From NCBI GenBank assembly GCA_018304505.1, contig JAGVWA010000007.1, positions 1 through 60,744 of the forward strand: a stretch of 60,744 nt of DNA, in the 5' to 3' direction. This document shows positions 30,531 to 35,186 of the stretch, in pieces. Source of the DNA: Nanobdellati archaeon (GTDB lineage: Archaea; B1Sed10-29; JAGVWA01). Every line of letters starts with the position of its first letter. The stretch's first letter is position 1. Made by a program: the position numbers and the translations under genes. Under the pieces are notes generated by a model, which saw only the letters and a program-made list of their open reading frames with translations, made no database searches and was not told the DNA's origin.

Positions 30531-30737
30531 ATGATGCCGCAAAGTCTGAATTATGAAGCATTCATGAAGCAAGACGTGTCTGAGTATTCTGGGCAATGGA
30601 TAATAATTATCAACCAGAAAGTCGTAAAGCATGGAACTGAACTTCAGCTAATTCTAAAGCAAGTGCAGAAGGAGTACCCGAAGCAAAAACCACTAATTGC
30701 GAGAATCCCCTCCTCAGCAGAAGAGCTGCTGTTGTAG
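30531..30737 (+). CDS. DUF5678 domain protein
   Basis: A 68-residue protein: Y-S-G-Q-W-I-I-I-I-N-Q-K-V-V-K-H-G-T-E-L-Q-x-I-L followed by L-I-A-R-I-P-S-S. This is the DUF5678 pattern (short beta-beta-alpha domain, often next to retropepsin-like genes). It stops in TAG, and the retropepsin-like gene follows in the same frame 15 bases later, so the two are surely co-transcribed. Function unknown. Confidence 0.75.
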   Translation: MMPQSLNYEAFMKQDVSEYSGQWIIIINQKVVKHGTELQLILKQVQKEYPKQKPLIARIPSSAEELLL

Positions 30738-30752
30738 GCGGGGTTGAAGTTT

Positions 30753-31178
30753 ATGGTTCATCACTTCAAGTACAAAAAATTGACCCCCTCTAGAAACAAA
30801 GAGAGAAAATACCCCGTTATCCCAGTCACGTATAAAACGGGAGACATTGAATTTGAAGTCATTTCTGTTGTGGACTCTGGAGCAACATCCTCATATCTGC
30901 CGTATTCTTTGGCAATGGCTCTTGGACTGAGTAAACAGAATAAAATAGAAACAGAAACGATGGGTGGAAAAATAAGCACTGCTACGGACAGGGTTATTAT
31001 CTCGATCCCATTGAAAAATGATAGACCTGTAAGAGTTGAAACCTACGTAAACTTCCCATGCTCACCAAAAGACGATCACTATGCCCATCCCTTATTGGGT
31101 AGGCAGGGCTTTTTTGATAAATTTATAGTCACATTTGATGACAAAAACGAGAAACTAACCCTGAAGAAAAACGAGTAG
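30753..31178 (+). CDS. Retropepsin-like aspartic protease
   Basis: About 141 residues from the ATG at 30753 (TTG at 30744 is an alternative nearer the GCGGGG). S-V-V-D-S-G-A-T-S-S-Y-L (catalytic D41-S-G) is the active-site loop of retropepsin-type aspartyl proteases. P-L-L-G-R-Q-G-F-F-D-K-F is the family's downstream strand. Such enzymes act as homodimers. The DUF5678 partner is directly upstream. It lies one gene before a putative RiPP operon, so a role in leader removal is conceivable, but it has its own transcription unit and pairs with DUF5678 elsewhere. It ends in TAG. Confidence 0.78.
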   Translation: MVHHFKYKKLTPSRNKERKYPVIPVTYKTGDIEFEVISVVDSGATSSYLPYSLAMALGLSKQNKIETETMGGKISTATDRVIISIPLKNDRPVRVETYVNFPCSPKDDHYAHPLLGRQGFFDKFIVTFDDKNEKLTLKKNE

Positions 31179-31243: not shown

Positions 31244-31253
31244 TTTTATATAC
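31244..31253 (+). promoter_or_regulatory. TATA box of the putative RiPP operon
   Basis: TTTTATATAC at 31244-31253 ends 22 nt before the ATG at 31276, so initiation would fall at or just before the start codon (leaderless). The preceding retropepsin gene ends at 31178, so the operon has its own promoter. Confidence 0.55.
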
Positions 31254-31275: not shown

Positions 31276-31620
31276 ATGGAAATAAGCTTTACTGGCAAGG
31301 TTGCGTCTAAAAATGACATAGACATGGTTACTGGTAGGGCTCTTTGGGTAGGCTCATGGGAAAAGCAGTTTGACGCTAACCAGGACAGCATCCTCGTGTG
31401 CCCCAAGACGGATTTTCTTGATGTCTCGAAACTCGCGAAATTTAGGGCCATTGTGTCTGCTACAGGCGGCGCGCTGTGCCACGCAGCCATCATTGCCAGG
31501 GAGCTGGGCATACCCGCGATAGTCGGGGTTGGAATAGAGAATTATGAGAAAGTCAAAACTGGAGATGAGCTTCAGTTGAACATGCTCACAGGAGAAATCA
31601 CTTGTGACGGAGGTAAGTAA
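31276..31620 (+). CDS. Stand-alone PEP-utilising-enzyme mobile (phosphohistidine) domain
   Basis: A 114-residue protein. T-G-G-A-L-C-H69-A-A-I-I-A-R-E-L-G-I-P-A-I-V-G is the swivelling phosphohistidine domain of PEP synthase/PPDK. The ATP-grasp and PEP-binding domains are absent. In the parent enzymes His69's equivalent carries phosphate between two active sites. Here it is the first gene of the operon, directly followed by the small peptide gene, whose Shine-Dalgarno sequence is inside this gene's last codons. Its role with the peptide is unknown; phosphate transfer to or from a partner is a guess. Confidence 0.85.
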   Translation: MEISFTGKVASKNDIDMVTGRALWVGSWEKQFDANQDSILVCPKTDFLDVSKLAKFRAIVSATGGALCHAAIIARELGIPAIVGVGIENYEKVKTGDELQLNMLTGEITCDGGK

Positions 31621-31749
31621 ATGGACTTGAGTCTAGGTACAACCACGTATGGTGGTTGGGAAGCAGACGGCTGGGAGAAAGACAACTGGAAAAGTGACAG
31701 CGATGGGATAGACCACTGGAAGGCAACCGACAGGGGGCAGGGCCAGTAG
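31621..31749 (+). CDS. Putative RiPP precursor peptide with D-x-W-[E/K]-x repeats
   Basis: A 42-residue peptide. A short leader (MDLSLGTTTY) precedes five pentapeptide units: GGWEA, DGWEK, DNWKS, a degenerate unit without Trp, and DHWKA, then a Gly/Gln tail. Trp falls at the third position in four of the five. GGAGGT at 31609-31614 lies six bases before the ATG and inside the end of the preceding gene; the ATG directly follows that gene's TAA. A radical SAM/SPASM gene follows 59 nt downstream. Short, repetitive, aromatic-rich and next to such an enzyme, it fits a precursor for peptide crosslinking, perhaps at Trp. No matching family is known to me. Confidence 0.7.
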   Translation: MDLSLGTTTYGGWEADGWEKDNWKSDSDGIDHWKATDRGQGQ

Positions 31750-31750
31750 C

Positions 31751-31790
31751 AAAACCAGGGGGGCTCCTTTGCTCCCACTCGGTTTTTTTT
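31751..31790 (+). terminator. Hairpin plus T-run between peptide and radical SAM gene
   Basis: AAAACC at 31751-31756 can pair with GGTTTT at 31781-31786 around a G-rich/C-rich inner stem. A run of eight T (31783-31790) and then seven G follow. Placed right after the peptide stop, it could terminate most transcripts and so favour peptide over enzyme, as in many RiPP clusters (inference). Confidence 0.5.
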
Positions 31791-31808: not shown

Positions 31809-33083
31809 TTGAAAACTATAGCTGAAAACGAATTCAGGAAACTCATAAGAGTACGCGATGACTTTAAGGTATTTCCAAAAAATTATAGCCCCGTGGACGT
31901 TCTTGGGGAGACAAGGGATTACGCCACGGTTCCTGTTACGAAACAAACAATTGTTTTTGAGGTTACAAACGCCTGCCCCATGGGCTGTGAATATTGTTTT
32001 ATTTCGAAAATAAATAAACAAGAGCGCCTCAAGCTTGCCGTCAACACCGAGGAGAACGTGGAAAAACTTTTGGATTATATGCGCTCAGCGGATCTTGATT
32101 TTGACTTGATTTTCCACGGTGGCGAGCCATTGTTGGCCAAGGGCCTGATAAAAAAGGTTGTTGATTCTATTAAGCACAGCAGAATGCTTAGAAATCGAGT
32201 TGCGTTTTCAATGCAGACTAGCGGTAAAGGCATGACCAGTGATTTTCTTGACTGGTTGATTGACAACGGGGTAAGTATTGGCGTGAGTGTTGATGGGCTC
32301 GCCAAGGGGCTTCGTGACTCATCGCCAGGCATTGAATTGCTAAAAATGCTTAATGAGCGCGGAAAAAGGGCCGGCCTCGTAGTTGTTGTTAACTCATCTA
32401 ATCAAGAAACGCTGTTTGAAGATTTTAAAAAGCTCTATAATGATTTCGGGGTGCGTGGATTCAACTATAACTCCGTAATTTCTGACAACAAGCATCAATT
32501 GCCAGATCTTGGAATAGTGCGCGAGCAAATGGAAAAAATCACCAACTACGTGCTGCAGAATAATTTGACTCCGAGTTTGAATCCGATGCAAATGTTTGCA
32601 GAGCGGCTCGCTGGTGGTGGGGGATCCCTGTGCTATGACGATGGGTGTGGGGGTTTCAAGAGGATAATCGCTTTCTCCACAGATGGCAAGTTCTATGCCT
32701 GTGATTCGTTAACAGACAACCCTGCATACAAGGCTGAGGGGCCAGGGGAATTTGCAGAAAAAAGGAAAGCCCTTTTGAAGGACGTCATAAAAATGAAAAC
32801 CTCTCTGTCATGCAGCACATGCAAGTATGGTTATGTGTGTTGCCTGCCGTGTATTGGAAAAGTAAGCCTCTTTGGCTCATCTGAGAAAACCATGAAGCAG
32901 GCATGTGAATACAACAAGGTTTTCCTGGACATCCTTGTAGAAAAAACACTTGACAACCCGCTGAATCTTTATCATTTTATTGGACTGGGTAGACAGCCTT
33001 CAAGGCGCGACGTGTTGCTGGCATACTCCAGGCCGTCTGCGGAATTTCATCCATTAAATCGCATTGGGGGTGAAACCAAGTGA
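31809..33083 (+). CDS. Radical SAM/SPASM peptide maturase
   Basis: A 424-residue protein starting at TTG 31809, with the G-rich GGGGGGGTG about ten bases upstream. The radical SAM cluster motif is C56-x3-C60-x2-C63 (ACPMGCEYC), followed by F-H-G-G-E-P-L-L. The C-terminal SPASM part supplies further cysteines: Y-A-C-D-S-L, C-S-T-C-K-Y-G-Y-V-C-C-L-P-C and Q-A-C-E-Y-N. SPASM radical SAM enzymes typically install C-S, C-C or C-O crosslinks in ribosomal peptides, or act as sulfatase maturases. With the Trp-repeat peptide next door, peptide maturation is the best reading. No obvious leader-binding domain is seen in the first 50 residues. Its stop overlaps the next gene's GTG. Confidence 0.85.
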   Translation: MKTIAENEFRKLIRVRDDFKVFPKNYSPVDVLGETRDYATVPVTKQTIVFEVTNACPMGCEYCFISKINKQERLKLAVNTEENVEKLLDYMRSADLDFDLIFHGGEPLLAKGLIKKVVDSIKHSRMLRNRVAFSMQTSGKGMTSDFLDWLIDNGVSIGVSVDGLAKGLRDSSPGIELLKMLNERGKRAGLVVVVNSSNQETLFEDFKKLYNDFGVRGFNYNSVISDNKHQLPDLGIVREQMEKITNYVLQNNLTPSLNPMQMFAERLAGGGGSLCYDDGCGGFKRIIAFSTDGKFYACDSLTDNPAYKAEGPGEFAEKRKALLKDVIKMKTSLSCSTCKYGYVCCLPCIGKVSLFGSSEKTMKQACEYNKVFLDILVEKTLDNPLNLYHFIGLGRQPSRRDVLLAYSRPSAEFHPLNRIGGETK

Positions 33084-34039
33084 AAGAAATCAAGGGGATA
33101 CATGGTGAGCCCAGGCCCGATTTTTTCAACAATTACACAAAGAGGCTAGAGCTCACCAAAGACAACCTGCTGCGGATCCTTAACGAGGTAGGGAACGCTC
33201 TTGCTTACCGATTTTTAGGCGCCAATGAGGATATCTTGTATGACATCAAAACCGATAGGGGAGAGTACATTGTCGCTGACGGCAAGGTTTCTGAAAAACT
33301 GGACTCTACTAAGTTTGAAATCCATTTAGATAAGCCCTCGCCGCAGGTTGAAAAAGTTAAGGCGAACATGGATTATCACATCAATGGATTCAAGTTTGCC
33401 TTTCTGAAAAATGATTTCAATGCCTTAGTGCATCACTATGCAAACTTCTATGCCAACTACCTGATATTTATAGAAATTAAGAGCCAGTTTGAGAAAATGA
33501 TTGATGCAGACGATGGCGAAATAGAAGGTAAAATGCTAATGCATATAGTGCCATCGTATTATTACGGTGTGTATACTGATCCTGTTTTCTCTAAATTCAT
33601 AGAAAGTGGCAGCTTCAAATTCGACAGGGAAGAAATAATAACATACAGAAAAGAGGCACTGTCTCAAGACCCATTGAAGTATTATTTCTTTAGGTTGCTG
33701 GATTTCTCAGTAGAATACTTGGACACGTATTACATACTCTCAACTGTAATGCTATATTTTCTCTCAAAAAGGAACGTTCCCAAGAACGTGTTTTTGAATG
33801 CAGTTAAGGAATCAAAGTTTGAAAACCGAGAGGCAACAGATTATTTCATGAGCTTTACCAACTATGACAACTGTGCTTATTTTAGTTTAGATAACGAAGA
33901 CCAGAAGCTCACTTACTATGTTAATGTTGGACGAATGACTGGCGAGCGATTCTTCTCAAAAGAACTCCTCGTAGACAACTACCCTCGCTACCCATTTTCT
34001 ATGCTATTGATACAAGAAGAACTGAACATCAAAGGTTGA
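33080..34039 (+). CDS. RiPP-operon protein of unknown function
   Basis: A 319-residue soluble protein starting at a GTG that overlaps the radical SAM stop by four bases (GTGA), so strictly coupled to it. It is mostly helical, with aromatic-rich segments (L-V-H-H-Y-A-N-F-Y-A-N-Y and Y-Y-Y-G-V-Y). No signal peptide or membrane helix and no recognised family. Coupling implies a partner of the maturase: substrate-binding, a second tailoring enzyme, or immunity. Nothing in the sequence decides among these. Confidence 0.65.
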   Translation: MKEIKGIHGEPRPDFFNNYTKRLELTKDNLLRILNEVGNALAYRFLGANEDILYDIKTDRGEYIVADGKVSEKLDSTKFEIHLDKPSPQVEKVKANMDYHINGFKFAFLKNDFNALVHHYANFYANYLIFIEIKSQFEKMIDADDGEIEGKMLMHIVPSYYYGVYTDPVFSKFIESGSFKFDREEIITYRKEALSQDPLKYYFFRLLDFSVEYLDTYYILSTVMLYFLSKRNVPKNVFLNAVKESKFENREATDYFMSFTNYDNCAYFSLDNEDQKLTYYVNVGRMTGERFFSKELLVDNYPRYPFSMLLIQEELNIKG

Positions 34040-34286: not shown

Positions 34287-35186
34287 TTAACTTACAGTTA
34301 GTTCAGAGCATATAGAATCGAAATTTTCATTGAAATAACCAAGGAGCACCTTGTTTTCTTTGTTTTCTCGATTCTGGCTCACCCAAGTTTGGAATTCAGC
34401 TATCGATCGGGAACCTGAGCAGTAAATCAGTTCAGCATTGGTTTCGGCTAGGGGTTCCCAAATATGAGTATCATGTGTTTGTACGCGTAAGCCTATAATA
34501 ACTATTTTGCTTGCCGATTGCGCAAGTTCTCTAAACCTCTTCCGTTGAAATAGGATAAAATCTGCTCCCGATGTTGTGCGTTTTTTGGGCTCCATGTAGC
34601 TCATTATCGGAGGGAACGCATCATTTCTTATTCGCTCCTTGAAGTGTTCTAGATCAACAATTGATCTCCCCGGTCCATTTGTTGTTACCCCCATTCCATT
34701 AAATGATACGTGCCTGGAATTTCCGCGTATGGACTCACAAAATAGATTGCAGCACCCATGCGGGATACACCACTCAATATGGTCTTGAATATTAGGTGTG
34801 GCTCCAAGAATTGGGATCCACCCACTAATCGCAAGGGAGGTCTCTAGTAATCGATCGTAGTTGAAACTTACAGGAGTTCCTTTCCATGCATTCTCTTTTA
34901 GCTTACGAAAGAGTTTTACGTAGAGATTATCTTCTGAAGGGATAAATTTAAAGAAGTATTCTGCCATTGCCCGTTGTAGTTCCGGCAGCAAGTGTCCTTT
35001 ACGTTCCGAAATCTTTAGCATGCCCTGCTCAAAATCCGAGTGAAGTAGCGCGGTAAATTCCGGAGAAAGTTCTTTCCATACCCTGCTAAATTCTGCTAGT
35101 TGATCATATAGCATGTTGGTTAATGGTGGCACATTGGTTGCATCTGAGCCATAACTGGCCCCTGCCCCAAAGATGATCATGTCCAT
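34287..35186 (-). CDS. SIR2-like domain protein, possible defence NADase
   Basis: A 299-residue protein. I-I-F-G-A-G-A-S-Y-G is the nucleotide-binding start of SIR2-like proteins. V-S-F-N-Y-D-R-L-L-E and I-P-H-G-C-C-N-L-F (catalytic-type His) follow. I-V-I-I-G-L-R-V-Q-T-H-D-T-H-I-W corresponds to the usual I-I-G-(Y/L)-S-F ... D strand. Such domains act as NAD-degrading effectors in several antiphage systems. No second effector or sensor domain is fused, and no obvious partner is adjacent on its strand. The 247-bp gap 34040-34286 shows nothing else. Confidence 0.75.
   Translation of the reverse strand: MDMIIFGAGASYGSDATNVPPLTNMLYDQLAEFSRVWKELSPEFTALLHSDFEQGMLKISERKGHLLPELQRAMAEYFFKFIPSEDNLYVKLFRKLKENAWKGTPVSFNYDRLLETSLAISGWIPILGATPNIQDHIEWCIPHGCCNLFCESIRGNSRHVSFNGMGVTTNGPGRSIVDLEHFKERIRNDAFPPIMSYMEPKKRTTSGADFILFQRKRFRELAQSASKIVIIGLRVQTHDTHIWEPLAETNAELIYCSGSRSIAEFQTWVSQNRENKENKVLLGYFNENFDSICSELTVS

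Follow-up and report, generated by a model that had tools for sequence, protein, structure and literature searches.

The window, a 60,744-nucleotide contig from a Nanobdellati archaeon with a genome of 0.92 Mb, contains an apparent operon of four genes. These encode, in order, a stand-alone PEP-utilizers domain, a 42-amino-acid peptide with a tryptophan repeat, a radical SAM/SPASM maturase and an orphan protein of 319 amino acids (Table 1). The archaeal identity of the genome is suggested by a full-length match to the archaeal SSU rRNA family, which bacterial controls also hit, and by genes and a promoter of archaeal type. The peptide gene is the second cistron, and its ATG abuts the stop codon of the PEP-utilizers gene. 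The peptide ORF is likely to be translated, since the Shine-Dalgarno sequence GGAGGT sits 6 bases 5′ of the ATG.

Table 1. Coordinates of the operon genes and associated signals (positions within the window)
Feature	Position	Strand	Evidence or remark
TATA-box-like TTTTATATA	31244..31252	+	~28 bases 5′ of the first gene's ATG; spotted by eye
Stand-alone PEP-utilizers mobile (phosphohistidine-type swivelling) domain, 114 aa	31276..31620	+	PF00391 E=1.8e-18, residues 36-105
Shine-Dalgarno GGAGGT of peptide gene	31609..31614	+	6 bases before ATG
Precursor-like peptide gene, 42 aa, Trp repeat	31621..31749	+	translation
Five 15-nt units GGWEA DGWEK DNWKS DSDGI DHWKA	31651..31725	+	after 10-residue N-terminus
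Hairpin with T-run (terminator- or attenuator-like), between peptide and maturase genes	31751..31786	+	folding, terminator scan
Radical SAM/SPASM peptide maturase, 424 aa, TTG start	31809..33083	+	PF04055 E=1.9e-11
Orphan protein, 319 aa, overlapping the maturase stop (GTGA)	33080..34039	+	no family match

Two further signals frame the peptide gene. Upstream of the operon, the TATA-like box suggests an archaeal promoter giving a near-leaderless transcript. Between the peptide and maturase genes, the segment 31750-31789 folds into a hairpin at −18.5 kcal/mol (z −3.96; 0 of 200 shuffles as low) that the terminator scan also lists; folding of a longer 66-nt stretch around it is not unusual relative to shuffles (z 0.17). 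To judge from the sequence, this arrangement suggests one transcript with an attenuator 3′ of the peptide gene. A Pfam search finds neither a transporter nor a leader peptidase among the operon genes. Just upstream (30531-31178, plus strand) lie a DUF5678 gene and then a gene for a retropepsin-like aspartyl protease, the latter a possible candidate for the leader peptidase; another genome (G004, L055) has a similar-looking protease ORF some 4 kb away from a PEP-domain pair. Beyond the operon, the minus strand (34287-35186) encodes a 299-amino-acid protein beginning MDMIIFGAGASYG, with a weak match to AbiH (E 0.087). We presume that this protein is perhaps SIR2-like, and its gene is possibly a defence gene.

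The peptide ORF translates to MDLSLGTTTYGGWEADGWEKDNWKSDSDGIDHWKATDRGQGQ. The sequence-only reading had described tryptophans at a fixed five-residue spacing, each preceded by aspartate. The spacing is confirmed: Trp13, Trp18, Trp23 and Trp33 fall in one five-residue phase (intervals of 5, 5 and 10), with the fourth unit, DSDGI, skipped, as it keeps its Asp and lacks Trp. The aspartate holds for three of the four tryptophans, at Trp−2, but not for the remaining one. Shuffling the peptide brings all four Trp into register at period 5 in 0.4% of cases and at any period from 3 to 8 in 4.1%, and an any-period phase combined with at least three Asp at Trp−2 arises in 0.05%, all for a Trp/Asp pattern picked post hoc, once seen. 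An imperfect 15-nt period in the DNA, claimed in the same reading, is also borne out: self-identity at 15 nt across the 75-nt core is 0.50, versus 0.32 in shuffled codons (6 of 2000 shuffles reach 0.50), the Trp units agree pairwise at 6-10 of 15 bases, and same-residue codon pairs among the units use different codons in three of seven instances. This worn period is real, and the small data fit selection or old duplication alike.

The maturase retains an intact CxxxCxxC motif from C56 and a SPASM motif, CX2CX5CX3C, from C335. Its closest NCBIfam models are mostly peptide maturases, all scoring far under their cut-offs. The top model is PapB (NF047865; 88.6 bits versus a cut-off of 340), and the enzyme also stays below the curated 3-CyFE models GrrM/OscB (38.0/310), FxsB (46.1/370), YhhB (63.5/445) and AmcB (48.2/425). 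No relative was confirmed in the genome-contig and viral-contig collections, and no close relative was found. Matches on plasmids are generic radical SAM enzymes, at about 26% identity among the 5 matches listed out of 37.

The PEP-utilizers domain scores 66.4 bits against PF00391 (cut-off 23.1), and its His69 (31480-31482) has a counterpart in all eight aligned domains. A related 349-amino-acid fusion protein gave a structural model (pLDDT 79.6) whose residues 1-111 match phosphohistidine domains, among them those of rifampin phosphotransferase (Z 18.2, rmsd 2.0 over 104 residues) and pyruvate phosphate dikinase; in a limited comparison, the C-terminal part of the model has no clear structural match. 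Because the histidine is present in every aligned domain and the model resembles phosphohistidine domains, the fold is likely to be a phosphoryl carrier, and it may act on the peptide or support its maturation. Within the operon, neither Pfam nor NCBIfam matched an ATP-grasp ligase of the kind that a graspetide cluster would carry, although the 319-amino-acid protein is unassigned in both, and no PEP-binding domain was recognised.

The 319-amino-acid protein has no Pfam match reaching cut-off and no NCBIfam or PDB sequence match. Searches of 19 genomes of the phylum and 345 archaeal genomes return only the protein itself, and no relative was found in the genome-contig collection or in the order. 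Its AlphaFold model (pLDDT 35.6) was unusable and was set aside. We considered whether this protein, a 261-amino-acid protein and the fused C-terminal regions form one family, and rejected the idea, as blastp, phmmer and hhalign gave no support; the 261-amino-acid protein is related only to a 284-amino-acid protein adjoining a PEP domain in G002. Nor was an orthologue of the Trp peptide found in the genomes searched. Viral contigs scanned for two D-x-W-[EK]-x units and a further Asp gave 40 stretches (47 frames listed). To go by the frames alone, these look like tandemly repeated sequence, fragments or pieces of larger proteins, and we set them aside.

The gene set itself recurs. PF00391 has 43 matches in the 19 phylum genomes, 16 of them in frames shorter than 700 amino acids, and 11 of these 16 small domains, as a raw count, lie beside or are fused to a radical SAM gene. 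The 11 loci are spread over five of the 19 genomes: G000, which carries the window, at C21 and C15 (two); G007 at C29, C30 (two) and C26; G017 at C17; G016 at C58; and G006 at C8:64927 and C6. Every one of them also has a small peptide ORF, so that the arrangement expected of a radical SAM RiPP, a short precursor gene adjoining the gene of a peptide-modifying enzyme, is found 11 times. In the window's own genome, the enzyme at C15:39440 is flanked by a small peptide, MKAFNVSLNNLPITAAYPESGKWIDTYGDTGGQYVQTSYSEHYTEN, on one side and by a PEP-utilizers domain on the other, and a third cassette near C15:4000 (L021:3756-6240) combines a radical SAM gene with a Cys-containing peptide and the 349-amino-acid PEP-utilizers fusion. 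A Cys peptide, a radical SAM gene and a PEP-utilizers fusion protein likewise make up the G007 C29 cassette (L054:2644-5136). At G006 C6 (L062:464-2621, minus strand), a single 652-amino-acid protein comprises PEP-utilizers, radical SAM and SPASM domains, with a Cys/Tyr/Asp-rich peptide ORF upstream. The radical SAM gene at G007 C26 is split into three frames in the assembly.

No radical SAM gene is seen beside the other five small PEP domains (G004 C3, G000 C18, G006 C8:5900, G002 C14 and G007 C19), two of which lie near contig edges: G000 C18 ends 610 bases past the gene and G002 C14 starts 426 bases before the match. Because of these five, the domain may have other work as well. At L055, L059 and L063, stand-alone PEP-utilizers genes are paired with orphans of about 310-370 amino acids, and radical SAM genes are absent; neighbouring genes that we take to be polyprenyl-synthase-like are common to L059 and L063. 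Three other arrangements were seen in passing. L021:7246-8673 (minus strand), in the window's genome, has a further radical SAM gene of SPASM type, accompanied by an 84-amino-acid ORF that is presumably PqqD-like. In G012:C21 and G002:C38, PF00391 is matched in two halves about 1.2-1.3 kb apart within one long frame, an intein-like arrangement in a gene of PEP-synthase size. At L057 (G222 C7), related proteins of about 490 amino acids are encoded in a cluster, and PEP-utilizers is matched 11 times in that genome.

Eight of the 11 peptides are of the aromatic-repeat type, two are Cys peptides and one is Cys/Tyr/Asp-rich. The eight aromatic-repeat peptides, the window's and seven siblings, all lie directly upstream of the maturase gene, and the two Cys peptides (G000 C15 and G007 C29) have C-x4-C-x-G-G-C-S-A in common. 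Sibling peptide ORFs were located by place and Shine-Dalgarno sequence, with those at L015 and L058 picked by eye among alternatives; sibling core limits were set by hand, and acid counts use the full-length peptides instead. The siblings carry Tyr as well as Trp, mostly spaced by 3-5 residues and with an acid at +2. Across the seven, Asp or Glu occupies aromatic+2 in 29 of 46 instances (shuffled mean 12.3) and aromatic−2 in 23 of 49 (shuffled mean 12.4), values reached in 0 of 3000 shuffles each, and there is no enrichment at −3, −1, +1 or +3. The window peptide places an acid at +2 of none of its five aromatics, at +3 of three of the five and at −2 in three of four cases. To go by the translations, a repeated aromatic plus acid after about ten residues is common to the window peptide and its siblings, and the register differs. 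This mismatch is the main result against a simple reading in which all eight undergo the same chemistry. The short leader of about ten residues, remarked on in the sequence-only reading, proves to be a trait common to the related cassettes.

Four sibling peptides have W-[IT]-D-T-Y-[GS]-[DE] in common. As a DNA pattern, this motif occurs in 8 of 394 archaeal genomes, four of the hits being the sibling cassettes; the other four, outside the phylum, were rejected as cassettes, being long or unrelated frames (two of 396-398 amino acids with GHVDHGKT, which we assume to be translation-factor-like, one of 189 and one of 77 inside a 660-amino-acid frame). Querying the 394 genomes with the N-terminal domain from three sibling maturases recovered only those three enzymes. 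A tree of 13 radical SAM cores, with long branches and weak group shuffles (for the aromatic group, 48 of 500 as low), puts six labelled aromatic-cassette enzymes on one side of a 99/99 branch and the two Cys-cassette enzymes in a separate group (99/98), with the window enzyme as a long, poorly placed branch.

Considered together, these data lead us to regard the 42-amino-acid ORF as probably the precursor of a RiPP in which aromatic side chains are repeatedly crosslinked, in a cyclophane-like manner, with an unusual phosphohistidine-type partner. We infer both the crosslinking and a biological role for the product from the genes. The SPASM maturase would bind the short N-terminus of the peptide and then move from unit to unit, in each of them linking the aromatic residue to a neighbouring residue through their side chains, which would give up to four identical rings. 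The bond would most likely be carbon-carbon. Its acceptor could be residue i+2 (Ala, Lys, Ser and Ala), with the geometry of a three-residue cyclophane, or the Asp at i+3 (Aro-x-x-Asp), with a wider ring. The hairpin 3′ of the peptide gene may allow peptide to be made in excess of enzyme, and the PEP-utilizers domain, through its conserved His, may serve as phosphoryl carrier for the peptide or its maturation, perhaps with the 319-amino-acid orphan. Several modifications per chain, as proposed from the repeat alone, are a sensible expectation because a SPASM maturase adjoins the peptide gene and seven cassettes keep a repeated aromatic-plus-acid design, but the five-residue Trp/Asp pattern on which that proposal was built is not shared by the siblings.

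The maturase might instead perform some other radical chemistry on the repeat, such as epimerisation, formation of ether, C-N or Asp-centred bonds, or decarboxylation. Its nearest models span ranthipeptide maturases, HxsB, CbpB and sulfatase maturase, sequence does not decide the reaction, and the acid residues of the siblings are as regular as the aromatics. We nevertheless think this unlikely, and the aromatics with an acid at +2 fit Tyr-Asp and Trp-Asp/Asn triceptide substrates as described in the relevant part of PMC11002830.

The recurrent pairing with a His-bearing phosphoryl-carrier fold, with the resemblance of the 349-amino-acid relative to rifampin phosphotransferase and the fusion of PEP-utilizers to radical SAM/SPASM in one protein, would also suit an operon whose product is a peptide-derived cofactor or a phosphopeptide, with the PEP-utilizers domain phosphorylating the peptide. 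Against this improbable outcome stand the ATP-grasp and PEP-binding searches of the operon, which recognised neither domain, and an orphan protein that belongs to no known family. That a small, acidic, Trp-rich ORF merely happens to lie between two genes and is no substrate is a far-fetched explanation: the codon-level signal is weak, the pattern is post hoc and the orthologue search came back empty, but the Shine-Dalgarno sequence is strong, the operon is tightly packed, and seven aromatic-repeat ORFs occupy the same place before the radical SAM gene in other cassettes. Crosslinking of the repeat remains our preferred reading. We are doubtful of its boldest form. On that view, this archaeal phylum would possess a new class of RiPP whose SPASM enzymes have a free-standing phosphohistidine swivelling domain as obligate partner; phosphorylation or phosphoryl-driven activation of the peptide would be coupled to repeated crosslinking of its aromatic units, and the window peptide would use a distinct Trp-x-x-Asp register.

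To our knowledge, repeat-type radical SAM peptides come mostly from bacteria. The cassettes described above add several divergent examples from archaea with small genomes, and the partner domain common to them did not turn up with radical SAM RiPPs in our literature searches. A full-text search, with many subscription papers outside its scope, returned none pairing radical SAM with PEP-utilizing and RiPP or with PEP-utilizers, or radical SAM and SPASM with phosphoenolpyruvate synthase and peptide. Should the PEP-utilizers domain prove necessary, it would add to RiPP biosynthesis a tailoring or regulatory step of a new kind. The window's genome, small and with three cassettes, lends itself to comparing peptide patterns with the enzymes beside them.

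PapB ranthipeptide precursors contain repeated Cys-x3-Asp/Glu. The PapB model is the best-scoring one for the window maturase, but at about a quarter of its cut-off, and the window peptide has no Cys. Like the phosphohistidine domain (PF00391) present in rifampin phosphotransferase and in PEP synthase, the PEP-utilizers domain of the operon has the conserved His; it differs in standing alone, without an ATP-grasp part, and in adjoining a radical SAM enzyme. An antiSMASH survey (PMC12144867) reports RiPP clusters in archaea; the lineages include DPANN, and the classes include ranthipeptides and sactipeptides. The Aro-Xaa-Xaa-Asn peptides of Cluster 27, for which wider cyclophanes are predicted, are described in a section of PMC9062424; the window units WEAD, WEKD and WKSD likewise place an acid or amide three residues after the aromatic, but with Asp in place of Asn, and ten homologues with a peptide are reported there against none found here. 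That section mentions no PEP domain.

Triceptides (XncB, OscB, MscB, YxdB, HaaB and YhhB) also pair a SPASM enzyme with an adjoining short precursor of aromatic units. Their i to i+2 bonds, in the portion of PMC11002830 that treats them, are Tyr-Asp (YxdB), Trp-Asn/Asp (OscB), Trp-Arg/Asn (XncB), His-Ala (HaaB) and Phe-Ser (MscB), and the Tyr-x-Asp and Trp-x-Asp units of the siblings resemble the substrates of YxdB and OscB. The window's gene set differs in a maturase under every curated cut-off, in having no acid at +2, in its PEP-utilizers partner and in its archaeal host. Acceptors such as Ala, Ser, Arg and Asn are also described in that portion, so an i+2 geometry stays compatible with the window peptide.
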